A DNA stretch of 64,000 bases from Pseudomonadota bacterium (GTDB lineage Bacteria; Pseudomonadota; Gammaproteobacteria; Burkholderiales; SG8-39): NCBI GenBank assembly GCA_947455195.1, contig CANGMI010000009.1, positions 233,113 to 297,112 on the forward strand, in the 5' to 3' direction. The position numbers were made by a program, and so were the translations under genes. Each line of letters starts with the position of its first letter. Within the stretch, counting starts at the first letter, position 1. Shown piece after piece: positions 41,607 through 64,000 of this stretch. The notes beneath the pieces are model-generated. The model did no database searches, had not been told where the DNA came from, and saw nothing but the letters and a program-made list of their open reading frames with translations.

Positions 41607-41646
41607 GATCACCACGGCCCCCTCTGTCTGAATATCATCATCGGGA

Positions 41647-46628: not shown

Positions 46629-46634
46629 CGGTGA

Positions 46635-47963: not shown

Positions 47964-47989
47964 GGAATGTGTGCCGTCCGAATGAGAGG

Positions 47990-48538
47990 TCAGTCAGTCT
48001 TCGCTGCGGTGGCCTTGAATCCACGCGCACCGAGTTGGATGAGGTAACCCCGTGCGTCGAGCATGAGCCGCTCGCGCTGCTCACCCGAGACGGGGTAATC
48101 GGCAAAGACAAAGGCTGCGAGCACCTTCGAGGCGGCAAACGTCTCGGGCGTGAGTCGCATCGACTGGCCGGGCACGAGTTCCATCCGTGTGACTGCAAGT
48201 CCCTGGGGAAAGGACCGCTCGATGTCACCCCTCGAGGCAAACCACCGGCTGGCCGGCATCGCCTGCACCGCATCCACCACAGCCTGCTCACGAGCCAGCA
48301 CGAGATCGACGGCAATCGGGCTGTTCTGGTTGACCTGATCATCCGCCAGGAAGACCAGGGACTTCCAGTCAGGCGTCACTGGACGCGGGCCGCTGCCGAA
48401 CACGGCTGAGTAGGCGCCGCTCACGACACTGCAACCGCTCAGTACCGGCATCAGGAGAGCGAGGAAAAAGGCACCGAAGCACGGGTACGCGCTGCGCGCG
48501 CGTGCACGGGCAGGCTGCAAGAGGGGCGCCGCGTTCAT
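47990..48538 (-). CDS. tssJ: T6SS outer-membrane lipoprotein TssJ
   Basis: 182 residues from the ATG at 48538. The signal peptide has a lipobox L-S-G-C with Cys36 as the lipidated residue. The beta-sandwich follows, with N-Q-N-S-P-I-A-V-D-L-V near 70-80. It anchors TssM to the outer membrane. Its start overlaps the stop of the small upstream gene by four bases (ATGA). The arginine-rich N-terminal stretch is longer than usual. Confidence 0.92.
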   Translation of the reverse strand: MNAAPLLQPARARARSAYPCFGAFFLALLMPVLSGCSVVSGAYSAVFGSGPRPVTPDWKSLVFLADDQVNQNSPIAVDLVLAREQAVVDAVQAMPASRWFASRGDIERSFPQGLAVTRMELVPGQSMRLTPETFAASKVLAAFVFADYPVSGEQRERLMLDARGYLIQLGARGFKATAAKTD

Positions 48539-48807
48539 CGCTTCGCCTCTTGAGCGGCTGGCGCCTGTTGACCGACCGTCTCGACGGGCGCTACCCCGCC
48601 AGCCACCGAACGCGGACGCCCGGCGTCGGCCTGTGTTGCCGGGACATTCGATAGGGGCTGACTGCCCGAGACCTGTGCGTGCGGGCCGGACAAGGCCATG
48701 ACCCGACCAATGTTCTCGCCGAGCAGAAACATCAGCACCATCAGCGCAATGAGGCACAGCAATGCAAGCGCCACCAGGCGCGGCGTCATGCTGAATCGAT
48801 ATTCCAT
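48535..48807 (-). CDS. Small single-span membrane protein in the T6SS cluster
   Basis: 90 residues with one hydrophobic helix at about 11-30 and a Gln/Ala/Pro-rich, probably periplasmic tail. I do not recognise the family. It overlaps tssJ by four bases and lies 27 bases after the PAAR-like gene, so it is translated with the core genes. It could be an accessory to the TssJLM complex or a remnant immunity protein. Confidence 0.72.
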   Translation of the reverse strand: MEYRFSMTPRLVALALLCLIALMVLMFLLGENIGRVMALSGPHAQVSGSQPLSNVPATQADAGRPRSVAGGVAPVETVGQQAPAAQEAKR

Positions 48808-48834
48808 GGCGTATCTCCTTGATCGGGCTGTGCA

Positions 48835-49221
48835 TCAGGGGGCTTGCACGGTGAACTGGCCGGCCATCTGGATACCGACGACCCCACCCCAGGCACACAT
48901 GAGCTTCGCGGCGTTGTCGAGGGCCGGCATGTTGCCGATCAACACGGTAGGCGCACCGGGCAACCAGGGAGCCACCGTGACCGGAATGCAGGGCATCGGC
49001 ACGAGCGCCCCCATCGCGGCTGCGGTGGCCGCTGCCACCATCGGATTGGCCATCGACTGACACATCGCGAACGGCAAGATGTTCGCCATCGGCTTGCTGT
49101 CCATGATGTTGGCATCCGGAATGTTGGTGAGCACTCGATTGAGCGGCAACACCATGAGTGCACCCGGGGCAATGCCAAAGGTGCATTTCAAGAGGGCGCC
49201 CATGCAGACCTGCTGTCCCAT
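48835..49221 (-). CDS. PAAR-like DUF4280 spike-tip protein
   Basis: 128 residues with the pattern V-C-M-G-A-L-L-K-C at the start, M-C-Q-S-M-A-N-P, P-M-P-C-I-P-V-T-V-A-P-W and L-M-C-A-W-G-G near the end. The spaced Cys residues and Pro/Gly turns are typical of DUF4280, a PAAR-like family that caps VgrG. No toxin domain is attached. The ATG follows the MORN gene's stop codon directly. It is the only PAAR-type gene in the window. Confidence 0.85.
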   Translation of the reverse strand: MGQQVCMGALLKCTFGIAPGALMVLPLNRVLTNIPDANIMDSKPMANILPFAMCQSMANPMVAAATAAAMGALVPMPCIPVTVAPWLPGAPTVLIGNMPALDNAAKLMCAWGGVVGIQMAGQFTVQAP

Positions 49222-49896
49222 TCAGTCACCTCGCACGAGTTGTCGGAGGCGCTCGAGAATGCTCTCGCTCGCCTGCTCGTTGTCCACCAGCTCGCCCTTC
49301 GCGTCATACCGACGCGGGGGTGCGATGGGCTTGCCCTGTTCGTAGACCAGTTCCTCCATGAGAGTCCCGTCGGGCCAGTAGCGTCGCAGGGGCCCATGAA
49401 GCACATTCTTTCGATAGGTACACAGCTGCACGATCGCGCCTTGCATGTCCAGATCGACCGACTCGCCTTCGAGCAGGCCCTGACGGTAGACCGAGCGACG
49501 CACCTCGACCCCCTCGTGGTAGAAGCGGGCCTCGCCATCGATCTGCCCCGCCTTGTAAGTCATGAGCGAGCTGAGGTTTCCGGCCGGGTCGAAGGAGCGG
49601 GATGGCCCGGTCTGCTCGCCATGCACCCAGGTCTGCTCCGCGATGCATCGCGCGTTTGCATGAATGCGCAGCAATCCGTGCGGCACACCCTCGTGGTAGC
49701 CGGCCTCCTGAATGAGCTCGCCCGAGTCCGTGTAGAGCGCGAGCGGTCCATGCAGATTGCCATCCTTGAAGAAGGCTCGCATCGTCAATTGCCCCTGCGG
49801 GCTGAACCGCTCCATGAGCCCCTGCAGGAGCCCGTCCTCGAGCTGACACCGCATGGTCACGCGTCCATCGTCATCGGTTTCCTCGAACAGACTCAT
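49222..49896 (-). CDS. MORN-repeat protein between vgrG and the PAAR-like gene
   Basis: 224 residues from the ATG at 49896; an upstream start at 49929 would overlap vgrG. It consists of about nine degenerate repeats of some 20-24 residues built on the pattern G-x-L-x-G-P-x-x-x-Y-x-x-x-G-x-L, as in MORN_2/YwqK-type proteins. No signal peptide. In other T6SS clusters such proteins lie beside spikes and may be chaperones, adaptors or immunity proteins; which applies here is unknown. Confidence 0.8.
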   Translation of the reverse strand: MSLFEETDDDGRVTMRCQLEDGLLQGLMERFSPQGQLTMRAFFKDGNLHGPLALYTDSGELIQEAGYHEGVPHGLLRIHANARCIAEQTWVHGEQTGPSRSFDPAGNLSSLMTYKAGQIDGEARFYHEGVEVRRSVYRQGLLEGESVDLDMQGAIVQLCTYRKNVLHGPLRRYWPDGTLMEELVYEQGKPIAPPRRYDAKGELVDNEQASESILERLRQLVRGD

Positions 49897-49906
49897 GGGC
49901 GCCGCA

Positions 49907-51874
49907 TCAGTTGATCTTCGCCAGTGCACCCTTGAGAGTGAGCAATGCGCCCGCCTCCACCGTGTGCATCGCGCTGGCCTTGCTGGTGATCATGGCGCCC
50001 TTGTTGTTCATCTGGACGCCGGCCTGATTGGTCAGGTTGACCCCGGCCTTGTTGGTCAGATTGGTACCGGCCTGATTGACCAGGTTTGTCCCCGCCTTGT
50101 TGGTGAGCGAAGTGCCAGCAGACATCGAAACCGCGCCACTCGAGGAGAAGGTGATGCCGCCACTGGCCGAGATGGTGAGCTTGCCGTTGACCTTCAATGC
50201 ATAGTCACCCGTCACCGTATGCGTGTACTTGGCCGAATTGGTCACCGTCTCGTTGCCGGTGACCTTCTTCGTTCGCGTGCCGGCTACCGTCAGCGAGTCA
50301 TTGCCTTTTTTAAGGGCAACCGTCCGGTTGCCTTTCGTGAGCGTGACCGTTTCATCGGCGGTGGTGATGGTCGTGGTGAGCGCGTTCTCTATCGCGATAA
50401 CCATGTCCTTTTGCGCATGCATGTAGAACTGCTCCGAGCCCTTCTTGTCCTCGAAGCGCAGTTCGTTGCCCGCCGTACCCGACTTGGATGAACGGGTCTT
50501 GAAACTGGACTGGGTCTGACTGGCCGGCAGGGTCACCGGCGGGCTGTTCTCTCCGTTGTACACCGCCCCCGTCACGATCGGCCTGTCCGGATCGCCATTG
50601 AGATACGAGACGACCACTTCCTGGCCTACTCGAGGCAGAAACAAGGCGCCAAACCCCTTGCCCGCCACGGGTTGCGCCACCCGGATCCAGGTGGAACTCG
50701 TATCGGTCTTCTTGCCGTCACGATCCCAGTAGAACTGCACCTTGATCCGGCCGTACTTGTCGGTCCATATCTCCTCTCCCTTGGAGCCGACGACCAGGGC
50801 CGTTTCGCTGCCGATTGCACGTGGCCTTGGCGTGGTGCGTTGAGCCCTGAACGGCACCGTGGCCGGAAACGCCTCGAACGAATTGCTGTAGAGGTTGTCG
50901 CGCGCGGTGTGGTGAACACGACGCAGGACAAAGGACGTATTGAGTGCCGTGACGAAGTGACCGCTCAAGGTGAACTTGGTGCCCGCCGAAAAAGCATAGG
51001 CAAAACTGTCGCCGCGCAAGGTCTGGGCAGCCACCTGATTGGCCTGTACCCGGATCTTCGCCAGGTTGGTACCCGCGCTGGCGGTCAGGTGTCCGGCCGG
51101 ATATTCGAAGTCGGTGCCAGACCCGAGCGTGCCAGCACTCGTGGCCAGCAGCGATGTGCTCGGATTCAGGTAGTCGTGGTCCGACAGTGTGGCCGTCTTG
51201 AGCACGAGTCGGTACTCATGCTCGAAGCGCGACACCGTATCGATCGGACTCATGTCATCGACCTGCGGCACGAATCGGATCTTGTCAGCCCCGGTACACG
51301 CCACATGAGCCGACGTGGCGTCAGCCAGAACCATCGTGTGGGTACCATTGGCAAACGTGAAGAAGTAGAAGATCCCCGCACTCTCCATCAGACGCGATAT
51401 GAAGTCGAAGTCGGTCTCGTCGTACTGCACGCAGTAGTCAAGCGCGGTGTACGTGCCGGTGGTCTTCGCGGAAAAGGTGACACCGGCAGCGCCCAGCACT
51501 GCCTTCACGATATCGATGACCGACTTCGCCTGATAGATCTTCCGGTTTCGGGAAAGCGTCAGAAGCCAGAGCTTGGGAACCACCTCAGCCTGATAGAGCG
51601 CGAAGTCGACGTTCTGCCCGGTCTGAACGAACCGGTTGACGATCCCGTTGAAGTACCGGGTTGGCCCGCCAGTAACGCCCATGGTGATGGTGACCGGTTG
51701 ACCGATGATGGTTTTCGCCGCGAGCGATGTGCTCTGCGATCGCATGTGCAACAGGAACTTGAAGGGTTCCGACAGGCCCTCGCTGCCATCCATCGCGTCG
51801 AGCAGCAGATCATTGGGCCCGAAGGGCGACTTGATCTTAAGGAAGGCGGTGGACTGTGTGTAGCCTGATCTCAC
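49907..51874 (-). CDS. vgrG: T6SS spike protein VgrG (TssI)
   Basis: 655 residues. The gp27-like N-terminal part is followed by the gp5 OB domain (K-Y-G-R-I-K-V-Q-F-Y-W-D-R-D-G-K near 375-390, then P-R-V-G-Q-E-V-V-V-S-Y-L-N-G-D-P-D-R-P). A repetitive beta-helix needle with octapeptide repeats ends the protein; no toxin domain is fused. The start is a GTG at 51874 overlapping the clpV stop. It forms the trimeric tip carrying the PAAR-like protein. Confidence 0.95.
   Translation of the reverse strand: MRSGYTQSTAFLKIKSPFGPNDLLLDAMDGSEGLSEPFKFLLHMRSQSTSLAAKTIIGQPVTITMGVTGGPTRYFNGIVNRFVQTGQNVDFALYQAEVVPKLWLLTLSRNRKIYQAKSVIDIVKAVLGAAGVTFSAKTTGTYTALDYCVQYDETDFDFISRLMESAGIFYFFTFANGTHTMVLADATSAHVACTGADKIRFVPQVDDMSPIDTVSRFEHEYRLVLKTATLSDHDYLNPSTSLLATSAGTLGSGTDFEYPAGHLTASAGTNLAKIRVQANQVAAQTLRGDSFAYAFSAGTKFTLSGHFVTALNTSFVLRRVHHTARDNLYSNSFEAFPATVPFRAQRTTPRPRAIGSETALVVGSKGEEIWTDKYGRIKVQFYWDRDGKKTDTSSTWIRVAQPVAGKGFGALFLPRVGQEVVVSYLNGDPDRPIVTGAVYNGENSPPVTLPASQTQSSFKTRSSKSGTAGNELRFEDKKGSEQFYMHAQKDMVIAIENALTTTITTADETVTLTKGNRTVALKKGNDSLTVAGTRTKKVTGNETVTNSAKYTHTVTGDYALKVNGKLTISASGGITFSSSGAVSMSAGTSLTNKAGTNLVNQAGTNLTNKAGVNLTNQAGVQMNNKGAMITSKASAMHTVEAGALLTLKGALAKIN
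50000..50119 (-). repeat. Octapeptide repeats in the VgrG needle
   Basis: Five consecutive 24-base units encode A-G-(T/V)-(S/N/Q)-(L/M)-(T/V/N)-N-(K/Q). The spacing of one turn per eight residues suits the triple-stranded beta-helix at the end of gp5-like spikes. Confidence 0.8.
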
Positions 51875-54588
51875 CGCACGGCCCCCGGCGGCACGTCAGT
51901 GAAGTGATACTCGAAACAGTCGGCCGCGTCGGCCCCGACATGGACCGCCGAGAAAGGCCGTGACATCGATATGCGCTCGAGCACGCGCGTCGACAGTTCG
52001 GGCAACACGGTCTGCGTGAGGATGAAGTCGATATTCCGCGCCCCGCTGTCGACCTCGGTACAGCGCGCCGTGATCAGCTCGACCACCTCGTCATCCCAGG
52101 TAAAGGCAGCACGGTGATTCTGGAGGAAACGCTCGGCAAGCCGTCCGAGCTTCAGCTCGACAATGCCGCGAATCTGGGAATCACCGAGCGGGTAGTAGGG
52201 AACGATGACAAGGCGCCCGAGAAAGGCCGGACTGAACTGCCTCAGCAGAACCGGCCTCAACTGCTCGACGAGCGTTGTCGGATCGGGACGCCGCCCACCT
52301 TCGCAAGCCTGGGTGATCACATCCTGGGCCGCATTGGAGGTGAGCAGGATGAGGGTATTGGTGAAGTCGATGCTGACGCCTTCGCCATCATCCATCGACC
52401 CCTTGTCGAACACCTGGAAGAAGAGTTCGAGCACATCGGGGTGCGCCTTCTCCATCTCGTCGAGGAGCACCACGGAGTACGGGCGGCGACGCACGGCTTC
52501 AGTGAGAACGCCACCCTTGCCGTAACCCACATAGCCCGGTGGCGCACCCTTGAGGCTCGAGACCGAATGGGCTTCCTGAAATTCCGACATGTTGATGGTG
52601 ATCATGTTGCGCTCACCCCCGTACAGCATGTCAGCCAGCGCACAGGCTGTCTCGGTCTTGCCAACACCGCTCGGGCCGACCAGCAGGAAAACGCCGACGG
52701 GCTTGCCCGGGTCATCGAGGTCTGCACTGAACGTACGCACCCGTCGGGCGATCGCATCGAGCGCCTGATCCTGGCCCTTCACCCGTTCGCAAAGCCTCTC
52801 GCGCAGATGCAGCACCGTGTGAATCTCGTCGATCATCATGCGGCCCACCGGGATGCCGGTCCAACTCGAGATGACCTGCGCAACCGTCCCCGAATCGACG
52901 CAGACCGGCACCATCGGGTCATCATCCTGGATAGCCTCGAGCCCTTTCTCAAGGCGCATCAACTGGGCTGCCAGCGACTCCCTTTCTTCGGCCCCGCTCT
53001 CATCGAACTGATCGATGCTCTGGCTGATCCGGCGCCGCAATTCGAGAATTTCCTCGACGGCGTGCCGCTCATTGCCGAGTTTTCGTCGCAGATGGTCTTC
53101 GCGGGTGCCAAGGCTCGCAATGCGCGCGAGCAGCGCCTCCATGTCGGTGCGGGCCTCACTGCCGGTTGCCTGCGAGTGGCGCAGGAGGCGCAATCGCCCC
53201 TGGGCTGCAACGATCTCGCGCTGGATCGACTCGATTTCTTCGGGTGTCCCGGACTGCCCGACCGCGACCCGTGCACACGCGGTATCGAGCACGCTGATGG
53301 CCTTGTCGGGCAACTGCCTCCCGCTGATATATCGATGCGACAGACGCACCGCATCACACACGGCCGAGTCGAGAATCTCGACACCATGATGACGCTCGAG
53401 CGTGGTCACCATGCCTCGCAGCATCTCGATTGCCACATCAGGTGCCGGCTCCTCCACCTTCACCACCTGGAATCGGCGCGCCAGGGCAGGGTCACGCTCG
53501 ACGTACTTCTTGTACTCGGCCCAGGTAGTGGCAGCAATGGTGCGAAGTTCACCGCGCGCCAGCGCAGGCTTCAGCAGATTGGCTGCATCCCCCTGCCCTT
53601 CCGACCCCCCGGCACCAATCAGCTGGTGGGCCTCGTCAATGAAGAGGATGACGGGTGAAGGGGACGCACGTACCTCGGCAATGACCGACTTCAGCCGATT
53701 CTCGAACTCACCCTTGATGCCCGCGCCCGCCTGCAACAGTGCGAGATCGAGCGATCGGACCGAGACACTCTGGAGCGCAGGGGGCACATCGCCATCGACC
53801 ACACGCTGTGCAAACCCCTCGACAACCGCCGTCTTGCCGACGCCGGCTTCGCCGGTCAGGATGGGATTGTTCTGACGGCGTCTCAGAAGCACATCAACGA
53901 TCTGGCGGATCTCGGCATCGCGCCCCTTGATCGGATCGATCTTGCCCTCGCGCGCGAGGGCAGTGATATCCACCGTGAACTGATCGAGCGAGGGTGTCGC
54001 GCCCGGTTTTCGGCTGGCACTGGGCATCGCTGCATGTCCAGCCGGGACCTCGGCGCCCATCGCGGGCAGATCCGCGGATGCACTGCCTCGAGCACGGGCT
54101 GCGCCTCCGGCATCTTCGCTCGACGCGGCCAGGAGATCAGCCAGAGAGCCACGCAGCGTCTCTCTGGGTATCCGCAGGAGCGTCGGCGCCATCTCGATCA
54201 GCAGGCCGCGAAGGCTATCGACTTCGAGAAGAGCAAGCAGCACCGTACCGGAACGGATCTGCTGCTCACCGAGCAGCATCGAGCTGAGCAGCCAGGCCTC
54301 CTGGAAGAGCGGCGCGAGGTGAGTCGAGAGGGCGGGGGTGCGTCCGTTGCCGCGCTTGAAGCGATCCATGCTCTGCTGCAACTGGGTCATGACCAGTTGC
54401 ACATCGATCTGGAACTGGCCAAGCAGGATCTCGAGGTCGGGTGACGTCTCCTCCAGCAGTCTCGTCAGCAGGTGCTCGATTTCCACGCTGTAGTGGGTCT
54501 GGCGCACGCACAACTCGGCGCTCTGCGTCATGGCTCGCTTGCATTCCGGATTGAGCCTGGCAAGGAGCGTCCTGATATCAATTTCCAT
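51871..54588 (-). CDS. clpV: T6SS sheath-recycling AAA+ ATPase ClpV (TssH)
   Basis: 905 residues. An N-terminal Clp-repeat domain that binds TssC (about 1-160) is followed by two AAA+ modules: G-E-A-G-V-G-K-T near 245 with L-F-I-D-E-A-H-Q-L, and G-P-S-G-V-G-K-T near 638 with the pore loop G-Y-V-G-Y-G. A coiled-coil middle domain (about 450-570) lies between. ClpV disassembles contracted TssB/TssC sheath. It overlaps tssG by 11 bases. Confidence 0.95.
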   Translation of the reverse strand: MEIDIRTLLARLNPECKRAMTQSAELCVRQTHYSVEIEHLLTRLLEETSPDLEILLGQFQIDVQLVMTQLQQSMDRFKRGNGRTPALSTHLAPLFQEAWLLSSMLLGEQQIRSGTVLLALLEVDSLRGLLIEMAPTLLRIPRETLRGSLADLLAASSEDAGGAARARGSASADLPAMGAEVPAGHAAMPSASRKPGATPSLDQFTVDITALAREGKIDPIKGRDAEIRQIVDVLLRRRQNNPILTGEAGVGKTAVVEGFAQRVVDGDVPPALQSVSVRSLDLALLQAGAGIKGEFENRLKSVIAEVRASPSPVILFIDEAHQLIGAGGSEGQGDAANLLKPALARGELRTIAATTWAEYKKYVERDPALARRFQVVKVEEPAPDVAIEMLRGMVTTLERHHGVEILDSAVCDAVRLSHRYISGRQLPDKAISVLDTACARVAVGQSGTPEEIESIQREIVAAQGRLRLLRHSQATGSEARTDMEALLARIASLGTREDHLRRKLGNERHAVEEILELRRRISQSIDQFDESGAEERESLAAQLMRLEKGLEAIQDDDPMVPVCVDSGTVAQVISSWTGIPVGRMMIDEIHTVLHLRERLCERVKGQDQALDAIARRVRTFSADLDDPGKPVGVFLLVGPSGVGKTETACALADMLYGGERNMITINMSEFQEAHSVSSLKGAPPGYVGYGKGGVLTEAVRRRPYSVVLLDEMEKAHPDVLELFFQVFDKGSMDDGEGVSIDFTNTLILLTSNAAQDVITQACEGGRRPDPTTLVEQLRPVLLRQFSPAFLGRLVIVPYYPLGDSQIRGIVELKLGRLAERFLQNHRAAFTWDDEVVELITARCTEVDSGARNIDFILTQTVLPELSTRVLERISMSRPFSAVHVGADAADCFEYHFTDVPPGAVR

Positions 54589-55660
54589 TCAGCGATGTCT
54601 CCTTGGCGCGAAGCGCGGCAACCCCATGGCGCGGGGCACGGACCCGAACCACCGGGGTAGCCAGCACAGGCTTGTTCATTCCAGCCACTCGCGCGGTCGT
54701 GAGCCAACTGGTATGCCCGAGGCTGGGTGGGTGAGTGCCGCCGAGAACGGCAGCGCCCGGTTCATCCGGATGCAAGGCGAGACGCAATCGCACCTCCACA
54801 TCGCTTTGCAGGTGGCATCGCACGGTCCAGCCGAGCAGTGCATGCGATCGGTCATCAGGCAGGAACGGGCGGATCTGGGGCAATCGAAGCGGCGCGCTCC
54901 GCAGCTCGATCGCGCTCGCCTGATCCCAGACGCGGCTGCCCAGGATGCCATTCACGCCCAGACGAGTGCCGCCGTCGGCACCGCCCAGCAGTGCTCTCTC
55001 GCCGCGATCGACCGGATGCCAGCCACCGATGAATTGCCGTCCGGTGAATCTCTGACCGAATCGGTCAGCCAGCAACGCGAGCAAGGACGTCATGGATCGC
55101 GGCGCGGCTCCCTGCAAGCCGGCATGACGGACCCACGCGTTCTCGCCATCGGGTCCGGCGGCACCCTGCGCCAACTGGAGGCCAGATAACGCATCGATCA
55201 CCCGGACGACCGGCATGCGAGTGATGCCATCGGCGCCCAGCGCGGGATTGTGCTTGCGACGAGCCCGGTAGAGGAAAGCCAGCATGCGCTGACTGAAGAT
55301 GTCCAGAAACTCCAGCCCGGCGCCGTCACGTTGACGGGCACGCTCGAGCAGCAGCTCGGTAAAGACCAGCGGCAGTGGCCCGTGCGCACCAGCCATCGAC
55401 ATCACGGTCGACATCAGCGTGAGGGGTGGGCCAGCGCGCTTGCTCGGTCCGACGGCCTGGATGTCGCTCGGAGGAAAGGCCAGACTCACGGCAGCCGACA
55501 GACGCACCGCCTCATCAAGCCCGACCGACGTACCGATCGGCGCCCGCGCAGGCTCGCTCCGCTCGAGCAGGCTCAGCGCCTGGAAGAGGTCGAAGCCGTA
55601 AGGCGCAGCACGCAGTTGAGCGATCAGATCACGCATTGGCGCCCGCTCAACGGCGGCCAT
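54578..55660 (-). CDS. tssG: T6SS baseplate protein TssG
   Basis: 360 residues from the ATG at 55660; an ATG at 55636 is also possible. The family marks F-D-L-F-Q-A-L-S-L-L-E near 23-33 and M-A-G-A-H-G-P-L-P-L-V-F-T-E-L near 88-102 are present. It is part of the baseplate wedge with TssF and TssE. The chosen start lies within the last 37 bases of tssF, so translation is probably coupled. Confidence 0.93.
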   Translation of the reverse strand: MAAVERAPMRDLIAQLRAAPYGFDLFQALSLLERSEPARAPIGTSVGLDEAVRLSAAVSLAFPPSDIQAVGPSKRAGPPLTLMSTVMSMAGAHGPLPLVFTELLLERARQRDGAGLEFLDIFSQRMLAFLYRARRKHNPALGADGITRMPVVRVIDALSGLQLAQGAAGPDGENAWVRHAGLQGAAPRSMTSLLALLADRFGQRFTGRQFIGGWHPVDRGERALLGGADGGTRLGVNGILGSRVWDQASAIELRSAPLRLPQIRPFLPDDRSHALLGWTVRCHLQSDVEVRLRLALHPDEPGAAVLGGTHPPSLGHTSWLTTARVAGMNKPVLATPVVRVRAPRHGVAALRAKETSLNGN

Positions 55661-57378
55661 CGCATCCAGGGTTCCCCGTTGCGCTCGACACACAACCGGA
55701 CGAAGGAGTTGACCGTTGTGTACAGGGCAAGAAATCGCGCGAGTACAGCCGCCATCAACAACGGAGAGCTGCCGGCAAATTCTGCCGGATCGAACTCGAG
55801 GGTGACTTCCGTACCCCGGCAGTGGCCACGCCAGGCTGCATTGCCGATTCGAGCCGTGGCAGGGCGAGAGCGCACCGAGACGAGACCTCGGATCTGCGAC
55901 TGGTCCCTGGGACTGTCGCCGGCAAAGAGCTGCAACATTTCACGAAGCCGGGTAACCCCTGCCGGTCCGTCGACGAGGGAACTGTGATTCAGCCGCAAGA
56001 GCGAAGCCAGCGTCCAGAGTGCCGAACTTGCCATCACCGGGTCGCGCTGGGCACTGGGTTCATAGAGTGACCGGATCACGAGCGATTCGGACAACCCCAC
56101 CCCGGTCAACCGTGCGCCGCGCGGCAATTGCTCGCCCAGTCCTCGATTGGTACAGAGGACCTCGGCGTAGATGACCGGCTGCTCGGGCACCTGACGGACA
56201 TCGGCGCGGTCGACAAACGAGAGGAAGGTCTCGGTGCCCGTGATGTCGCGCTTCGTGTGCGCCTCCCGCCGAGACGTCCAGTACAGACCGCCACCGCCCG
56301 CGCCCGTATCGTTCGCAGCGTGAATGTTCGGGATGGACTCGGGGCGCTCGGCCAGCGGGTCCGATGCGATCACCGCCAGAATCGAATGGATCTCGGTCGA
56401 GGCTTCCCGCTGACGATCCGCCACCAGGCGATACTCGGTCTGCCGCCGATCCATGACGATCGGCTCGGTGGTGGCATGAAAGAGATTCACGACAGGAACG
56501 CAACCAAGCCGGAAGGTTTCAGCGTCAACCGCCGACAAGCTCTTCGCCGCGTAGGCGAAAACCAGTCGTACGGCGAAGCCGGCGCCTGAGCCAAGGCGAT
56601 GCCTCAATCCGCCAAGTTCGAAGAACTGGAACTTGCGCGGGAATACGAAGTACTCGCGCAGCAGGCTGTATGCCGGATGGGCGTGGGCGGGGACCGGCAG
56701 CACCTCCTGCCCTTCGTCGAATCCGAACTCGCGCAATGCCGCGGGACCCAGGTGGTGATCGCGCCCATCGGCCTCGATCACGACATCGACCAGCGCGCTC
56801 ACCAGCATCTCGTGCAATGGCATCGTCGCCATGAGATCGCCGGCCAGGTGAAACCGCAAGGTATCCACCTCAATCTCCGAAACATCGGTGCCTGGCACGG
56901 CGTCGAACACAAGTCGCAGGTTCCGGCTGTCGACAAGGCGCGCACCCGACACCGTGAGTGGCCACAACGTGGTATCCCAGGCGGTTTGAAACCGGCACAG
57001 CTGCCCATCTGCCGTTGTCGCCTGGAGCATTGCGCCCTTGGCGATCGGCAGTCCGGATGTCACCTTGCCTTGCGCCTCATCAAGGATCATCTGGACGATG
57101 CTGATCGAGGGCACCGGCTGAGCGAGTGTGGGGCAGACATTGTCGAGCACTGCCGACGCAATCCGAGGAAACTCGCGGTCCAGTTCGCGGTGCACCCGCG
57201 CTCCGAGGAACGCCACCGATTCGATCAGCCGTTCGGTATGCGGGTCGGCAGACTCTTCCCCGGACAAGACGAGCCGCTGCGCCACCTTGGGATGGCGATC
57301 GGCAAAATCCTGACCCTGCGCCCGGAGATAGGCCATCTCGCGCCGGTAATACTCAAGAATGTCGTCGCTACCATCCAC
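55624..57378 (-). CDS. tssF: T6SS baseplate protein TssF
   Basis: 584 residues from a GTG at 57378. The family start I-L-E-Y-Y-R-R-E-M-A-Y-L-R and the D-P-H-T-E-R-L-I-E-S-V-A-F-L motif near 45-58 are clear. It forms the wedge with TssG, joining TssE and TssK around the VgrG hub. It is 35 bases downstream of tssE. Confidence 0.94.
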   Translation of the reverse strand: MDGSDDILEYYRREMAYLRAQGQDFADRHPKVAQRLVLSGEESADPHTERLIESVAFLGARVHRELDREFPRIASAVLDNVCPTLAQPVPSISIVQMILDEAQGKVTSGLPIAKGAMLQATTADGQLCRFQTAWDTTLWPLTVSGARLVDSRNLRLVFDAVPGTDVSEIEVDTLRFHLAGDLMATMPLHEMLVSALVDVVIEADGRDHHLGPAALREFGFDEGQEVLPVPAHAHPAYSLLREYFVFPRKFQFFELGGLRHRLGSGAGFAVRLVFAYAAKSLSAVDAETFRLGCVPVVNLFHATTEPIVMDRRQTEYRLVADRQREASTEIHSILAVIASDPLAERPESIPNIHAANDTGAGGGGLYWTSRREAHTKRDITGTETFLSFVDRADVRQVPEQPVIYAEVLCTNRGLGEQLPRGARLTGVGLSESLVIRSLYEPSAQRDPVMASSALWTLASLLRLNHSSLVDGPAGVTRLREMLQLFAGDSPRDQSQIRGLVSVRSRPATARIGNAAWRGHCRGTEVTLEFDPAEFAGSSPLLMAAVLARFLALYTTVNSFVRLCVERNGEPWMRWPPLSGRQCVI

Positions 57379-57413
57379 TGCGTCGCAGCCCGGGTCAGTC
57401 GTGCATTAAGAGG

Positions 57414-57860
57414 TCACGTGGCGCCGAGCGTGGTGGCAGCCCCAGGCATGATCTCCAGATTGAAGTCGACTCGGCACAGCTGGTTACCAAGCCTCACTGC
57501 CGCTTCGATGGCCACTCGGGCGCGGTAGGACAACCCCTCGACGAGGTCGACCATCACCTGTACGAGCGCAAGACGCGGCTCGAAGGCAGCTATGGCTTTA
57601 CCGATCGCCGCTCCCATGATTTCCCGATCCGGGTACGACTGCGGGCTGAGCCCTCGGAAGTCGGGAAGCCCGTAATCAAGTACCGTCAGTTCGAGGTCGA
57701 GAAAATCGTCGATCGCCAGACGAGACGTGCTGTTGAAGAGTCGCTGCAGATCCAGAGCAAGCGAATGCCTCAAACCAGCCGCATCCAGCAGAACGCCGTC
57801 TTCATACCCGATGAGCCGGTCAAGCAGAGGCGCGAGGGATCCCCGCATCAGCGCCGACAT
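57414..57860 (-). CDS. tssE: T6SS baseplate protein TssE (gp25-like)
   Basis: 148 residues. The family features L-N-S-T/F-N-S-T near the middle, Y-G-L-P-D-F near 63-68 and I-x-x-F-E-P-R-L near 90-97 are present. TssE is the gp25-like protein that starts sheath assembly at the baseplate. It is 47 bases after hcp. Confidence 0.92.
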   Translation of the reverse strand: MSALMRGSLAPLLDRLIGYEDGVLLDAAGLRHSLALDLQRLFNSTSRLAIDDFLDLELTVLDYGLPDFRGLSPQSYPDREIMGAAIGKAIAAFEPRLALVQVMVDLVEGLSYRARVAIEAAVRLGNQLCRVDFNLEIMPGAATTLGAT

Positions 57861-57907
57861 CGCGTCGCCCCTACCTGACTCTCACCGCGGCCCGGGGTCA
57901 GACAGAA

Positions 57908-58396
57908 TCAACTCGCTTTCAGCGTGCTCTTGTCGTAGCTGTACGCAGAGACGCCCTTCTTGGCACCGGTGGCCAACTGCTGGGCATATTCCTTGGTGAT
58001 CGCCGAGAAGTTGATCGAGAAGCTGTCCGATGGCATTCCACCTCCGCCAGACTGCTGATAGCTCGAGATGAGGACGTTGGTGAACGTGACCTTCATCATT
58101 TCCATGTAGGTGCCTGTGGTGCCTTCGATCCGGCCGACGTAGAGAATGGCCGTCGGGATCGGTGTTCCCATCAGGTGATAGCTCTCGATGTCCGTTGACG
58201 AAATGTCAGACATCTTGGTGAAGTTCCAGTCGGAGATCACCGGACGACCGGTGGTGCGCTCGCTGTTCGCCGTGTCCACCTGCAGCGGCATCGTGGATCC
58301 GGCGGAAAAACTGTCGACGAGGATCTTGCCGGCGTAGCCGGTGACCGTGCAGTTCCCGGCAATCTTGCCGAGGTCGAGAATCATGATATCGGACAT
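57908..58396 (-). CDS. hcp: T6SS tube protein Hcp (TssD)
   Basis: 162 residues, typical of Hcp. The start D-I-M-I-L-D-L-G-K-I, the central I-S-D-W-N-F-T-K and the F-S-I-N-F-S-A-I stretch near the end are characteristic. Hexameric rings of Hcp form the inner tube and may carry effectors. No C-terminal toxin is fused. A strong hairpin lies just upstream (58420-58440), separating it from tssC. Confidence 0.95.
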   Translation of the reverse strand: MSDIMILDLGKIAGNCTVTGYAGKILVDSFSAGSTMPLQVDTANSERTTGRPVISDWNFTKMSDISSTDIESYHLMGTPIPTAILYVGRIEGTTGTYMEMMKVTFTNVLISSYQQSGGGGMPSDSFSINFSAITKEYAQQLATGAKKGVSAYSYDKSTLKAS

Positions 58397-58419
58397 CTTG
58401 AAGCCTCCAAGTCAGGGTG

Positions 58420-58440
58420 CCCCCGTCCGCTGGACGGGGG
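58420..58440. other. Strong hairpin between tssC and hcp
   Basis: CCCCCGTCC-GCT-GGACGGGGG forms a perfect nine-base G+C stem with a three-base loop, 24 bases before the hcp ATG. On the minus strand no T-run follows it, so it is more likely a 5' stabilising or processing hairpin for the hcp message, or an attenuator, than a full terminator. Confidence 0.65.
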
Positions 58441-58475
58441 ACTTTCATTTGCAATCAGTAGGGCGGAAATCGGCC

Positions 58476-59972
58476 TCAGGCAGCCGCTGCAGGCAACTCG
58501 GCGACCAGTCGGATGGACGCAGTGAGTTCTTCCATCTGGAAGTGGGGCTTCAGGAACACCGTCGCCTGATAAGCACCAGGCTTGCCTGCCACTTCGACCA
58601 CGTCGACCCGCCCTTCCGAGAGCGGCAGACGAGCCTTGATGTCCTGCCCCGCATTCGTGCTGAGGAGAACGAAACCGGCCAGCCAGTTGTTCAGGTAATC
58701 GGCCACGGCCTCTTTCGTCTGGAAGCTGCCCACCTTGTCACGCATCATCACCTTCAGATAGTGAGCAAAGCGTGAAGCGGCGAGAATGTAGGGCAGACGC
58801 GACGACAGGGCCGCGTTGGCGTTGGCCGAGTCGAGGTTGTAGACCTTCGGTTTGTTGGTCGTCTGACCACCGAAGAACGCCGCGTAGTTGGAACCCTTGG
58901 CATTCACCGCCGCGATGAATCCGAGGTCGTTCAGTTCCTTTTCGCGCCGATCGGTGATCGTGACTTCGGTCGGGCACTTGAGCATGACCTCGCCTTCCTC
59001 GGTCTTGAACGTATGCGCGGTCAGGCCCGTGACCTTCCCACCGCCTTCCACGCCGCGAATGGCCGTGGTCCATCCATAGGTCGCAAAGGCGCTCGTGATG
59101 CGCAGCCCCAGTTGGTAAGCCGAGTTGGCCCAGAGGTACTTCGAGTGATCGGTACCGTCAACGTCCTCCTCGAAGCCGAACGAATCAACGGGTGAGGTGG
59201 CGGCACCATAAGGCAGACGTGCCGCGTAGCTCGGCAGTACCAGAGCCACGTAACGCGAGTCTTCCGATTCGCGGAATGCCCGCCAACTGGCGAGTTCGGC
59301 ACTCTCGAAGATCTTTGCCAGATCTCGGGGAACACCAAGTTCCGTGAATGAGCGCATGTCGAACAGGCCAGGCGCAGCGGCCGCGATGAAGGGCGCGTGC
59401 GCAGCGGCCGCAACCTTCGAAACGCGCTCGAGGAGAGCGATGTCTTGCGGGTGACGGCCAAACGAATAATCGCCGATCAGCAGGGAATACGGACTGCCGC
59501 CAAACGTGCCGTACTCTTCCTCGTAGATCTTCTTGAACAGCGTGCTCATGTCGTGGTCGACGGCCGTCTCGAGATCCTTGAGCAGCTCGCCCTTGGTCAC
59601 GTTCATGAGGCGAAGCTTCAGACGCGTGCTCGTCTCGGTGCCGAAAACCATGTCGTGCAGGCCACGCCAGGACGCCTCAAGCTTCTGGAACGCCGCGTCA
59701 TGGAGGATGGCATTCAGCTGGTCGGAGATGATGCGATCAATCTCGGCGACCCGCTCGTTGATCGTCGCAACCACACCCTTGTCGGGTGCCGTCTTCATGC
59801 CCTCGTCGAGGATCTGGGTGGCGAACTGGCCGAGCAACTTCTTCGCGTAATCGCGTTGCGACGGCTCGACGGCCATCTTGCCTTCCTGAACGATCCGGTC
59901 GAGGAGGCTCAGTTCCTGGGATACGGCGCCGGCTGCGCCGCCTTCTGCTGCTGCTTCTGAATTCGTTGCCAT
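58476..59972 (-). CDS. tssC: T6SS sheath protein TssC
   Basis: 498 residues from the ATG at 59972; a TTG at 59981 is also in frame. Family features include Q-K-L-E-A-S-W-R-G-L, L-I-G-D-Y-S-F-G-R-H-P-Q-D near 171-183 and L-P-Y-I-L-A-A-S-R-F-A-H-Y near 403-415. With TssB it forms the contractile sheath. Fifty bases separate it from tssB. Confidence 0.96.
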   Translation of the reverse strand: MATNSEAAAEGGAAGAVSQELSLLDRIVQEGKMAVEPSQRDYAKKLLGQFATQILDEGMKTAPDKGVVATINERVAEIDRIISDQLNAILHDAAFQKLEASWRGLHDMVFGTETSTRLKLRLMNVTKGELLKDLETAVDHDMSTLFKKIYEEEYGTFGGSPYSLLIGDYSFGRHPQDIALLERVSKVAAAAHAPFIAAAAPGLFDMRSFTELGVPRDLAKIFESAELASWRAFRESEDSRYVALVLPSYAARLPYGAATSPVDSFGFEEDVDGTDHSKYLWANSAYQLGLRITSAFATYGWTTAIRGVEGGGKVTGLTAHTFKTEEGEVMLKCPTEVTITDRREKELNDLGFIAAVNAKGSNYAAFFGGQTTNKPKVYNLDSANANAALSSRLPYILAASRFAHYLKVMMRDKVGSFQTKEAVADYLNNWLAGFVLLSTNAGQDIKARLPLSEGRVDVVEVAGKPGAYQATVFLKPHFQMEELTASIRLVAELPAAAA

Positions 59973-60022
59973 GTGATTCAACCTGTCAAATGAGGAGGTT
60001 ATCGTCGGGCGCGCTGCGCGAG

Positions 60023-60520
60023 TCAGGCCGCAGCGCCGTCGGTGCCCTTGAGCGCCTTGAGTTCTTCACTGTTCTGCAGGATGTTCTCGAGCAGGGCATC
60101 GAGTTCATCGTTCCCGTCCAGCTTGCCCAGCAGATCGCGCAACTGTTGACGCGCCTCGAGCAGCTTTGTCAGACGGGGAATCTGGGCAACGATCGCCTCC
60201 GGATGGAAGTGATCGTATTCGGTGAAATTGAGTTCCACCTTGAGATTGCCTTCGCCCTTCAAGGTGTCAGGCACGGAGAGATCAAGCCGCGGCGCGATCT
60301 TGCCCAGGACATCATTGAAGTTGTCGCGATCGATTTCCACGAAGCGACGGTCCTTGAACTTGGGAAGCGGATTGAGCGGTTGCCCCGACAGATCAGCCAT
60401 CAGGCCGACGACGAACGGGAGTTCCTTCTTTTCCACCGCATTGCCGATCTCCACGTCATAGGTGATCTGAACCCGCGGGGGGCGGTTGCGACCGACCCAC
60501 TTCTGCAAACTGTTGGACAT
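60023..60520 (-). CDS. tssB: T6SS sheath protein TssB
   Basis: 165 residues. It begins S-N-S-L-Q-K-W-V-G-R-N-R-P-P-R-V-Q-I-T-Y-D and contains L-P-F-V-V-G-L-M-A-D-L-S-G near 34-46 and F-K-D-R-R-F-V-E-I-D near 55-64. It is the first gene of the T6SS operon; AAGAGG precedes the ATG. The 296-base gap upstream is the likely main promoter region. Confidence 0.96.
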   Translation of the reverse strand: MSNSLQKWVGRNRPPRVQITYDVEIGNAVEKKELPFVVGLMADLSGQPLNPLPKFKDRRFVEIDRDNFNDVLGKIAPRLDLSVPDTLKGEGNLKVELNFTEYDHFHPEAIVAQIPRLTKLLEARQQLRDLLGKLDGNDELDALLENILQNSEELKALKGTDGAAA

Positions 60521-60646
60521 CGGTGACCTCTTGAATGATGGATTGATACTGTTCGACTCAAGCGACTTCGCGTGTACCCGCCGTCGTTTTGTCCATGTGC
60601 AACGTCAAGGGAGATGCTCCCAAGCACGCTGCAGAACATACAGGGA

Positions 60647-60661
60647 CATATGGACGATATG
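60647..60661. promoter_or_regulatory. Small dyad in the tssB divergent control region
   Basis: CATAT-GGACG-ATATG is an inverted repeat with five-base arms in a locally A+T-richer part of the gap between tssB and the divergent unknown gene. It could be an operator; support is limited to symmetry and position. Confidence 0.25.
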
Positions 60662-60726
60662 AGGGCCGCAAGTCGATCAGCAATAACAATTAATGAATCG
60701 CACGCAACCCGTTTGCGACCGGCCAT

Positions 60727-60740
60727 GCACACTCGCTGCC
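60727..60740 (-). promoter_or_regulatory. Weak sigma-54-like element upstream of tssB
   Basis: On the minus strand GG-CAGCGAGTGT-GC has the required ten-base spacing and GGCA at -24, but the -12 half is only GTGC. T6SS operons are sometimes sigma-54 dependent. A GG-N10-GC pair is expected by chance in a gap this long, so the call is tentative. Confidence 0.25.
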
Positions 60741-60816
60741 CAGCCTGCGTGATGTCCAGCGCATACGCGTTGCCAGGCAGGACCTTGCATTCCTTCGCGG
60801 CGCCCGATCAGACCTG

Positions 60817-61464
60817 ATGCTGCATCCACTCGTCAGCTTGTGGCGACACAACTGTCGCGCCACCTTCTACGAAGGCGGGGCCCTTCCGGCTGACGCTTTC
60901 CGGAGCCAGACGCCCGGCGCAAGCATTCCGATACCCAGCGGCCTCAGACGTCGGTTCGGCTCCTTCGAGGAGGCGCTGCACTATGTGAGGTTCTGGCTGG
61001 GCGATCGATCGGCACAGTCGGAACTGCGCTGGATGCTCAGTCGAACCACTGGCTCCGGGTCGAGTGCTCAGCGTCCACTTGCCGACTGGATGAATGCACT
61101 CGCCAGAGGGCTGGCCACGGGGACCCTCGTCGTGGTCGAAGAGTCGAGTCGGCTCGCTGGCCCGAGTCAGATCTTCGCGCCCAAGAAGTCCAAGACTTCG
61201 GCACTGAGCAAGTTGCCGACACTGGCCAGCATGCCAACGGTGCCCAAACTCGCGGCCCTGCTGCCCTCGCTCCAGGCGGTGCAGATCGAGGGGGCCGAAG
61301 TGATGCCCGAGATCGAGCAGACACTTGCGCAGACCCGGGCATCGATCGCTGCCGTTCAGGGCGCGTCGGCGTCGCTCACGCCCGCGCCAGCAAACATCGC
61401 CGACATACAGGGGGCGATGAATGCCGCCTCTGCAAGGACGTCGGCGCAGATGGCTTCGGCATAG
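60817..61464 (+). CDS. Unrecognised T6SS-adjacent protein, 215 residues
   Basis: It has two parts. Residues 1-125 look globular, with F-E-E-A-L-H-Y-V-R-F-W-L near 50-61 and W-M-N-A-L-A-R-G-L-A-T-G-T-L-V-V-V-E-E near 91-109. Residues 140-215 are Ala/Ser-rich and helical (P-E-I-E-Q-T-L-A-Q-T-R-A-S-I-A-A-V-Q), resembling the start of the next protein. No signal peptide or catalytic motif is seen. It is divergent from tssB and 49 bases before the 699-residue gene, probably in one operon. It could be an adaptor for the following protein; this is inference. Confidence 0.75.
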   Translation: MLHPLVSLWRHNCRATFYEGGALPADAFRSQTPGASIPIPSGLRRRFGSFEEALHYVRFWLGDRSAQSELRWMLSRTTGSGSSAQRPLADWMNALARGLATGTLVVVEESSRLAGPSQIFAPKKSKTSALSKLPTLASMPTVPKLAALLPSLQAVQIEGAEVMPEIEQTLAQTRASIAAVQGASASLTPAPANIADIQGAMNAASARTSAQMASA

Positions 61465-61513
61465 ACCACGACCACCATACCCAGCCTCGATACCGATTGA
61501 TATCGCCACCCGC

Positions 61514-63613
61514 ATGAACCTCGTCAACCAAGCCGCAGAAGCACTGAAATCGGGGGCCGCACGCATTGCTGCGGCGCTCGCCTCAGCCTCGGCTGGGGTC
61601 GCAACCTCGATGCAGGACATGCCCGCACGAATCGCTGCTGCGGCATCAGCAACAACCGCCAACCTGCAGGCGCTCAACACCGCAGTGGCTGCAGTGCCAC
61701 CGCTGGTCGAGCCCCCCGTCATCGTTGGAGACCTGCTCCAGACCGTCAAGCCGGCTCTGGCGACGCTCAAGGAACACACGACAACAGCGGCACAGGTGCC
61801 AGCAACGATGGCGACACAGGGGGCCGATCTGACGCCCCTGCTGGCAGAGGTGAATACACTGGTCGCCGGAGCCCCAGCCATCGCAGCGCAACTGGGCAGC
61901 CTCGTGCCCAACCTGGAGGCGCCCCTTGCGGTCAAGAAAGGGCATCGTGCCGACCTGCGTGCCATCGCCGCTGATGCAACCACAGCCATTGCGCGTATCG
62001 AGGCTTACGGCGCGCAACTGCGCACCGCGGCAGTCGCAAGCGCTGATGTTGCCACGCTCGTCGCCATGCGGGACGGCGCGAGCGCGGACATCAGCGCAAC
62101 CCGACAGAGAACCAGCTCAAGTCTGGCGGAAGCTCGCTCGAAGTTCCTTGCCGCGAGCGACGAGATCGCCGCTGCGCTGGCACAGGCCCTCGCCGCCATC
62201 GATCCGCAACTGGCCCAGTCGATAGCGCCGCTCCAGGAGATCGCCGCCAAGCTGCAAGCGGCCCAGACCAATCTGGCCGCACAATCGAAGTCCACGAGCG
62301 AGCAATTCAACGCGTCAGCTTCAGCCGTCGATGCTGCGGCGAAGGCCGCTGCCCCCCCCGTCCTTGCAGCCGAAAGTCGCCTCGCAGCCACTTCGGCGAA
62401 GATCGACGCAGCAGCCGTGCAGATCGAGGCACTCGGCAAGAAGGCGCTGGCACCCATTGATGAGGTCGATGCAAGCGCGAAGGCCTGTGTCGCTGCCATC
62501 AACAACGCGCTCGGCTCCGTCAAGGCGGAATTCGACAAGGTCACGGAGTCGCTCGCCGGCATTGACGCGCAGGCCAATGCGGCAAAAGCTTCGCTGACGG
62601 CGCTGCCCGACAACTTTGCCTCGGTAGGCACACAGATCGAGGCAGCCAAGGCAGCGATCGCAGCCATCCAGGCCGGGATTCCCGCCTTTGTCACTCAATC
62701 CACGAACGCGCTCACTCAAGCCAGTGCAGAACTCGATCAGGCCAGTGTCCTTTGCGACAATGCGATCGCGATCTGCACGAAGTACATGATGCAGGCGCCG
62801 CTCCTGATTCCCGCCCGGTTATTGTTCCTGGGCGTGAAAACCATGATCCCGGGCATCAAGATCCTCATCAAGGGTGCCGGCACTGCGGTAACGGCCGCCG
62901 GCAAGGCGGCCGATGCCTGCCTCACGACGGCGATCGGTGCCGTCGGCGCCCTGCAACCCGTCATGCTCAAGGTCATCGATGCGATCAAGAGCGCGATTGC
63001 CCCCCTGATAGCGCTGATCACAGGCTTTCAGCAGACTCTGGCAGCGGGGATCACCCAACTGAAAGCGGTCGTCGACAAACTGGTCACATCGGTAGCTGCT
63101 ACGCATGCTCCCCTCGACGCACTGATCGTGCGACTCAAGACGACGGCCAGCACGCACATGACGAAGGTACCCCCACAGACCGTGCTCGACACGACTCGCC
63201 AGAAGCTTGCCGCAGTGGATACAGGAACCATCCAGCCGCTGAAGAATCTGACCTCACCGGGAGATGGCACTGTCACCGAATCGATCAATGAGTCTCGCGA
63301 TGGCATCGCAAAGGCAGCAGAGGAACTCGGTGCGACGTTGACTGCGCTATCCGCCCGAGTCAGCGGCATTACGACCGTCGCCACACAGTCAGCTGACGCA
63401 CTCAAGGGTCTCCTGACACAAGCGCAAGGCATGCAGTCGAGCTTGAAAGCGCAAGGGGAAGCTCAAGGCCAGACCCTCGCAGGGCACATCACGGCACTGC
63501 TCGACGGCGCTGACGCGCAAGTCATTGCGCTCTTCGAGGCCGCCAGGTCCACCATCGGTGGTGACGCAGCAGCAAGCGCTTCTGCGTCTGACGGAGCTGC
63601 CAGTGGCAACTGA
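61514..63613 (+). CDS. Large alanine-rich helical protein with a central hydrophobic segment, 699 residues
   Basis: I do not recognise a family. Residues 1-425 are almost entirely Ala/Ser/Gln/Leu-rich helix with heptad-like spacing. Residues about 428-520 are hydrophobic and glycine-spaced (L-L-I-P-A-R-L-L-F-L-G, G-I-K-I-L-I-K-G-A-G, I-A-P-L-I-A-L-I-T-G). Residues 520-690 return to polar helix. There is no signal peptide. The start at 61514 lacks a clear ribosome site. This helix-hydrophobic-helix plan recalls ClyA/Hbl-type alpha-helical pore formers, and the position beside tssB suggests a secreted cargo; both are hypotheses. A structural or tape-measure-like role is an alternative. Confidence 0.78.
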   Translation: MNLVNQAAEALKSGAARIAAALASASAGVATSMQDMPARIAAAASATTANLQALNTAVAAVPPLVEPPVIVGDLLQTVKPALATLKEHTTTAAQVPATMATQGADLTPLLAEVNTLVAGAPAIAAQLGSLVPNLEAPLAVKKGHRADLRAIAADATTAIARIEAYGAQLRTAAVASADVATLVAMRDGASADISATRQRTSSSLAEARSKFLAASDEIAAALAQALAAIDPQLAQSIAPLQEIAAKLQAAQTNLAAQSKSTSEQFNASASAVDAAAKAAAPPVLAAESRLAATSAKIDAAAVQIEALGKKALAPIDEVDASAKACVAAINNALGSVKAEFDKVTESLAGIDAQANAAKASLTALPDNFASVGTQIEAAKAAIAAIQAGIPAFVTQSTNALTQASAELDQASVLCDNAIAICTKYMMQAPLLIPARLLFLGVKTMIPGIKILIKGAGTAVTAAGKAADACLTTAIGAVGALQPVMLKVIDAIKSAIAPLIALITGFQQTLAAGITQLKAVVDKLVTSVAATHAPLDALIVRLKTTASTHMTKVPPQTVLDTTRQKLAAVDTGTIQPLKNLTSPGDGTVTESINESRDGIAKAAEELGATLTALSARVSGITTVATQSADALKGLLTQAQGMQSSLKAQGEAQGQTLAGHITALLDGADAQVIALFEAARSTIGGDAAASASASDGAASGN

Positions 63614-64000
63614 GGCGCTTGATGCAAACCTTCAGGCGGCAAGCAGCAGCCTCTCCAGCCTCGGGCTTCCGCTCGGGAGTACTCTCGACGAATCGCTGGG
63701 CACCATTCAGTCCGACGCAGACAGCCTCTCGACGCTGCTGACCGGCAAGTCCGCGGCCCCTGCCGCAGCCGCACCGGAAGCGGCAGCCGATGGTGCCGCC
63801 ACCGAAGGCGAATCGACAGCAGACCCGGAATCCGGGAGTGCGCCCTCGGATGAGGCGGCAGCCGAGGAATCGGCCACGGATGATGCCGGTGCGGATGAGG
63901 CAGCGGCCGAGGAATCGGCCACGGACGATGCCAGTCCGGATGAGGCAGCGGCCGAGGAATCGGCCACGGACGATGCCAGTCCGGATGAGGCAGCGGCCGA
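63603..64000 (+). CDS. Acidic repeat protein, N-terminal part
   Basis: It starts at a GTG (63603) six bases after GGAG, overlapping the previous gene by 11 bases; a GTG at 63558 is an alternative. A short helical section (A-T-E-A-L-D-A-N-L-Q-A-A-S-S-S-L) is followed by an Ala/Pro stretch and then tandem 15-residue acidic repeats rich in Glu, Asp and Ala. It is open to the right edge, so its C terminus and function are unseen. Close coupling to the 699-residue gene suggests a shared role. Confidence 0.68.
   Translation, partial: MATEALDANLQAASSSLSSLGLPLGSTLDESLGTIQSDADSLSTLLTGKSAAPAAAAPEAAADGAATEGESTADPESGSAPSDEAAAEESATDDAGADEAAAEESATDDASPDEAAAEESATDDASPDEAAA
63849..64000 (+). repeat. 45-base tandem repeats encoding acidic 15-residue units
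   Basis: Three complete units (63849-63893, 63894-63938, 63939-63983) and the first 17 bases of a fourth are visible; the second and third are identical. Each encodes D-E-A-A-A-E-E-S-A-T-D-D-A-x-x, with G-A or S-P at the end. The array continues beyond the window. Exact copies suggest recent expansion and possible length variation. Confidence 0.92.

Follow-up and report, generated by a model that had tools for sequence, protein, structure and literature searches.

Type VI secretion systems (T6SSs) are usually described as a set of core parts together with variable effectors. A described parallel in kind to the genes considered here is TagJ/HsiE1 (ImpE), a class-specific T6SS accessory that, in contrast to the large protein described below, is not a giant helical protein. 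TagJ has co-evolved with the sheath proteins and ClpV (PMC4239648), and DUF4123 proteins load VgrG with effectors (PMC5471719). Here we analyzed the final 64 kb of the 297,112-base contig CANGMI010000009.1 from a Pseudomonadota bacterium (this whole stretch of 64,000 nucleotides is referred to as the window), and focused on a module at the contig end, beside a T6SS cluster, in which a small gene (g1) precedes a large helical gene (g2) and a truncated third gene (g3). The g1–g2 pair is very probably tied to the T6SS, and our leading but tentative reading, to which we give somewhat less than an even chance, is that it forms an accessory adaptor-plus-scaffold of one T6SS lineage, with g3 being the tail of g2 elsewhere. 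Gene order, co-occurrence, parallel trees and conservation form the basis of this reading, while any mechanism beyond co-occurrence is one that we infer. The features of the module are as follows:

60817..61464, plus strand: g1, 215 aa, with a predicted alpha/beta N-domain, a linker and two C-terminal helices
61514..63613, plus strand: g2, 699 aa, Ala-rich, a predicted all-helical rod
63603..64000, plus strand: g3, cut by the contig end, an Ala/Asp/Glu-rich repeat protein that corresponds to the g2 tail of relatives
63847..64000, no strand: 45-bp tandem repeat, 3.4 copies, encoding g3's acidic repeats and cut short by the end of the contig

Association of g1–g2 with one T6SS lineage

Scanning the genome_contigs collection with a g1 profile revealed 29 loci, and further genome searches added G115, G117, G013 and the congener G001 (the same contig as L011). 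In the 29 loci with a called g2, g1 lies directly before g2 on the same strand, with a gap of -1 to 50 bases. T6SS genes occur within the fetched DNA at 21 of the 29 genome_contigs loci, and at L021 and L026 the contig ends on the side where relatives carry the T6SS. The module takes three arrangements: upstream of tssB and in the same direction (Oxalobacteraceae and Ramlibacter albus), divergent from tssB (the window, G001, Limnohabitans and kin) and at the tssA end (L033, L035 and G117). Leaving the window aside, each of the 32 carrier genomes has TssC, compared with 94 of 399 genomes over the cut-off in an order sample and 14 of 101 relatives, both background samples containing a few carriers. 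With T6SS genes at 21 of 29 loci and TssC in 32 of 32 genomes, we found neither of the two outcomes that an earlier note on this DNA, made from its letters, had named as speaking against a T6SS role, namely homologues mostly away from T6SS loci or a housekeeping family. In the order sample, the g1 profile matched at least 3 of 399 genomes, which is a lower bound because scoring covered at most seven candidates in each genome.

A TssC tree of 96 rows, made with a quick method and including 48 non-carrier rows picked in part for carrier-like scores, placed 31 carriers (window included) in a single 40-row clade (Shimodaira–Hasegawa-like approximate likelihood-ratio support, 100), and the TssC of carrier G458 was placed in this clade afterwards by 89% identity. 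Overall, counting the window, one TssC lineage is represented in 32 of 33 carriers, among them the seven without a nearby T6SS gene. Part of the carriers' extra TssC copies were also placed: 15 in the tree (14 rows labeled OTHER, plus L089) and two from G458 by best match, all outside the clade, with L122 and L123 inside it being the carriers' own clade copies. The congener G002 has no clade TssC, no g1 and no g2. The g2 tree falls into the same main groups as the TssC tree, also where loci are unlinked, with some long g2 branches that drew a tool warning. Distances in g2 and TssC were correlated across 31 genomes (rho 0.58; reached in 0 of 2000 permutations) and across the 11 genomes with separately fetched loci (rho 0.62; reached in 20 of 2000), which fits common vertical inheritance but is by itself no proof of interaction. 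Between the window and G001, both genes are under purifying selection, with ratios of non-synonymous to synonymous substitution (dN/dS) of 0.20 for g1 and 0.15 for g2. Because every carrier has a T6SS, almost always of the same lineage, these results point to a dedicated T6SS accessory.

Several observations weigh against a lineage-bound accessory. Seven loci (L027, L032, L034, L036, L037, L038 and G013, the last being L009) have no T6SS gene in the fetched DNA and show chromosomal neighbors such as cinA, pgpA and a sensor kinase, although at L037 and L009 g2 runs into the contig end and that side is unseen. The g2 profile finds nothing in eight non-carriers inside the TssC clade (G030 being 71% complete), and the module is not obligatory for the lineage, since only 3 of the 10 order-sample members of the clade carry it. 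One carrier, G476, has a single TssC that lies outside the clade, and shared species history alone can yield the g2/TssC distance correlation. The g1 N-domain was not found in G467 by an N-domain search, and in L028–L031 only the C-terminal third of g1 could be aligned. Finally, the AlphaFold2 model of g2 (27 sequences; mean predicted local distance difference test score (pLDDT), 76.7) is weak, with a predicted template modeling score (pTM) of 0.37, and its overall fold is uncertain.

The seven loci with ordinary chromosomal neighbors (six of the 29 plus G013), together with matches of apolipoprotein-type amphipathic helices, would suit a module that is functionally apart from the T6SS, such as a helical cell-organization or surface-coating pair co-inherited by chance. 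This seems improbable, as there is no TssC-less carrier among the 32 and the linkage recurs in three different arrangements. G476 (L039 / L153) is a metagenome-assembled genome titled Longimicrobiales in which g1–g2 lies by a divergent tssH that is 53% identical to the window's, so that either the contig is misbinned or the carrier belongs to another phylum. An Ala-rich substitute gene on the outward side of tssB was found in none of 10 loci (seven clade non-carriers and three carriers with an unlinked module) using a crude composition filter with no positive control.

The g2 rod, its tail and the g2/g3 split

The earlier note had described three plus-strand genes encoding 215 aa, 699 aa and an acidic-repeat protein, the second and third overlapping by 11 bases. 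The genes and the overlap (63603–63613, with g3 starting at a GTG at 63603) were found as described, but the three-gene unit did not hold up: in relatives, genes 2 and 3 form one open reading frame, making this a two-protein module of a small g1 and a giant rod, g2. Uncut g2 homologues are 1,170–1,993 aa long (leaving out L028, which changes frame) and consist of a helical core followed by a low-complexity, Ala-rich and mostly acidic tail. The split was found only in the window and G001, where a helical protein of 699 aa is followed by an overlapping gene of its own for the acidic part. The contig end cuts g3 short in both, and in the window only the beginning of g3 is visible because contig and window end together inside the repeat. 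In the window a GGAG lies six bases ahead of the g3 GTG, and in G001 g3 has an ATG start and a 17-base overlap, so a separate g3 start appears to be a simpler reading than a programmed g2/g3 frameshift. The split in the window's genus would then represent a gene fission whose products are held together by the start/stop overlap.

Of the 29 g2 proteins called, which include those of the window and G001, 21 have an AEVVKHGGE-like motif at residue 874–952. In the uncut proteins of these 21, the stretch after the motif is 288–1,036 residues long, has a high content of A, S, G, P and T, and contains 8–20% D/E and 2–10% K/R. Judging from this composition, the tail is probably disordered, and it may act as a spacer or a recruiting arm. 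Length differences among g2 proteins lie mostly in this tail and not in the core.

In the g2 model, a helix at residues 179–424 is followed by a turn and a second helix at 431–551, predicting a long helical hairpin rod of about 37 nm (246 residues at 1.5 Å). Information content peaks at residues 401–460, around the predicted hairpin turn, and this region would be the docking surface. Fold comparison did not single out a relative, with ClyA, chemoreceptors and designed bundles scoring equally. Like the alpha-pore-forming toxins (ClyA, XaxB, AhlB and MakA), g2 is predicted to have long antiparallel helices and a distinct turn region. These toxins score no better than unrelated helical proteins, and the 19-residue stretch of highest hydrophobicity shifts in position among 32 members.

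With its small gene ahead of a giant helical one and a contractile, tail-like machine next to it, the locus also recalls the tail chaperone and tape-measure protein of phages. By analogy, g2 could be a tape-measure-like rod in the Hcp tube or sheath that restricts or directs the growth of this structure, g1 being an assembly chaperone, but we consider this very unlikely. Of three g2 proteins scanned, that of L032 is matched by PHROGs tape-measure models (best E = 1.4e-12), on generic helical stretches, while the g2 of P0002 and L012 have no such match. There was likewise no match in viral contigs (g1 profile), phages (P0002) or plasmids (P0001 and P0002), and the variation of g2 length mostly in the tail also counts against this reading. 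In addition, one study describes the T6SS sheath of Vibrio cholerae as limited in length by cell size and apparently unregulated, unlike tails that have a tape measure (PMC5511345).

Relatives of g1 and its second context

No Pfam or NCBIfam model matched g1 or the visible part of g3 over the cut-off, and g2 had only matches of low-complexity or coiled-coil type (best, Baculo_PEP_C at 38.5 bits with a cut-off of 38), in agreement with the earlier description of these proteins as lacking a recognizable family. The same libraries gave no match to a toxin or delivery domain (PAAR, VgrG, Rhs or MIX) in g1, g2 or visible g3. Searches of 5.8 billion proteins returned 12 rows for g1, query included, and at least two for g2, while a profile built from 29 g1 sequences reached at least 59 clusters (query included), none with a Pfam domain and, among the matches listed, all named hypothetical or nameless. 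Searches of the open-access literature turned up no account of these genes. The possibility that g1 is a duplicate of part of g2 was rejected, there being no similarity (hhalign probability, 1.3%). Across 398 genomes of the phylum, scored at up to two candidates each, at least 51 had a match to the g2 profile, but only G000 and G115 exceeded 41 bits and the 49 others were treated as helical noise. A match in G085 (E = 9.8e-4, with internal stops) and a weak match of G001:C76 to the g1 N-domain were left uncounted.

Homologues of g1 share the same ATG start. The predicted N-domain covers approximately residues 1–110, and the C-terminal helices bear an EGAEVLPE-type motif. Structure prediction yielded a small alpha/beta domain and two helices (pLDDT 78.6; pTM 0.48), for which structure comparison revealed no convincing relative. 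Duplicated forms also occur: g1 is in tandem in G473, L036:9932-11266 contains a tandem g1 duplication ahead of g2, and P0020 and P0021 look as if two g1 N-domains had been fused.

A search of 30 genomes with the g1 N-domain revealed a second copy, apart from g2, in four of them (G115, G451, G453 and G456), and in all four this paralogue lies directly upstream of a DUF4123-type gene, an assignment based on a Pfam match in G115 (E = 4.6e-26) and on 60–62% identity in the other three. These two-gene units (L151:7760-9144 in G115; L186, L187 and L188) are apart from the T6SS cluster, and the G115 paralogue keeps the N-domain but differs in its C-terminal part, which has two GTPFCEICE motifs. The arrangement resembles DUF4123 (Tap-1/TEC) adaptor cassettes, although g1 and g2 have no PF13503 (DUF4123) match and the gene downstream in the window is g2. 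This context is the best clue that g1 may be of adaptor type.

Because g1 paralogues precede DUF4123-type genes, a cargo role also keeps an appreciable minority share of the probability, about a third. Here g2, or g2 and g3 together, would be a rod-like protein delivered by the T6SS, and g1 a stand-alone delivery partner or chaperone. We favor an accessory over cargo because the module is inherited with one T6SS lineage and g2 has no recognized toxin domain. The earlier proposal of a new T6SS cargo module or accessory structure is partly supported, with its link to the T6SS upheld and the accessory structure the likelier of its two roles.

The neighboring T6SS cluster and the proposed role

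The DNA next to the module comprises the following:

60521..60816, no strand: intergenic stretch of 296 bases, from divergent tssB to g1
60023..60520, minus strand: tssB, which opens the divergent T6SS cluster (PF05591, E = 1e-55)
40497..59981, minus strand: remainder of the cluster, tssC, hcp, tssE, tssF, tssG, tssH, vgrG, four further genes (for MORN and DUF4280 proteins, a single helix of 90 aa and a TssJ-like lipoprotein), tssK, tssL, tssM and tssA

The divergence from tssB is as the earlier note had it, with 296 bases in between. In the T6SS cluster that the note called complete, tssB, tssC, hcp, tssE, tssF, tssG, tssH, vgrG, the MORN protein, the DUF4280 gene, tssK, tssL, tssM and tssA were assigned by Pfam, but completeness hinges on accepting a TssJ that has no Pfam match and was assigned from a lipobox-like Cys and its position. 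The four further genes lie between vgrG and tssK (47990–49896), the DUF4280 gene among them being presumably PAAR-like, and many T6SS loci of the window's TssC clade also have a MORN homologue. Hcp (57908–58396) is only 53% identical to its counterpart in G001 (L008:5858-6337; dN/dS 0.33), compared with 76–95% for ten other genes, and may be a fast-changing or replaced tube protein. In Oxalobacteraceae T6SS loci, varied uncharacterized genes, large or unusual, lie upstream of g1 (L021:7894-9456, L012:5530-7269 and L013:8874-9767) and are possibly effectors.

In the accessory reading that we favor, the turn of the g2 hairpin would dock on a T6SS component, and g1 would be the adaptor coupling the rod to the machine. 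Such a pair would be parallel in kind to TagJ, although PF07024 is absent among the Pfam matches of g1, g2 and g3 up to E = 10. A bolder version, in which the lineage has its own giant hairpin of about 37 nm with a low-complexity, mostly acidic tail, which the dedicated small adaptor would load into or onto the machine, is conceivable but rather unlikely. Rod and adaptor would then be either the T6SS equivalent of the tape-measure and chaperone proteins of phage tails or the first of a new, rod-shaped kind of protein that the T6SS delivers. The role of the module is directly testable, since its carriers include named isolates from the genera Noviherbaspirillum, Duganella, Rugamonas and Massilia. 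The analysis also links a family of hypothetical proteins resembling g1 (at least 59 clusters, query included) to the T6SS, and, if the favored reading is true, a giant, vertically inherited and lineage-bound rod of no known family would represent a further class of T6SS part.
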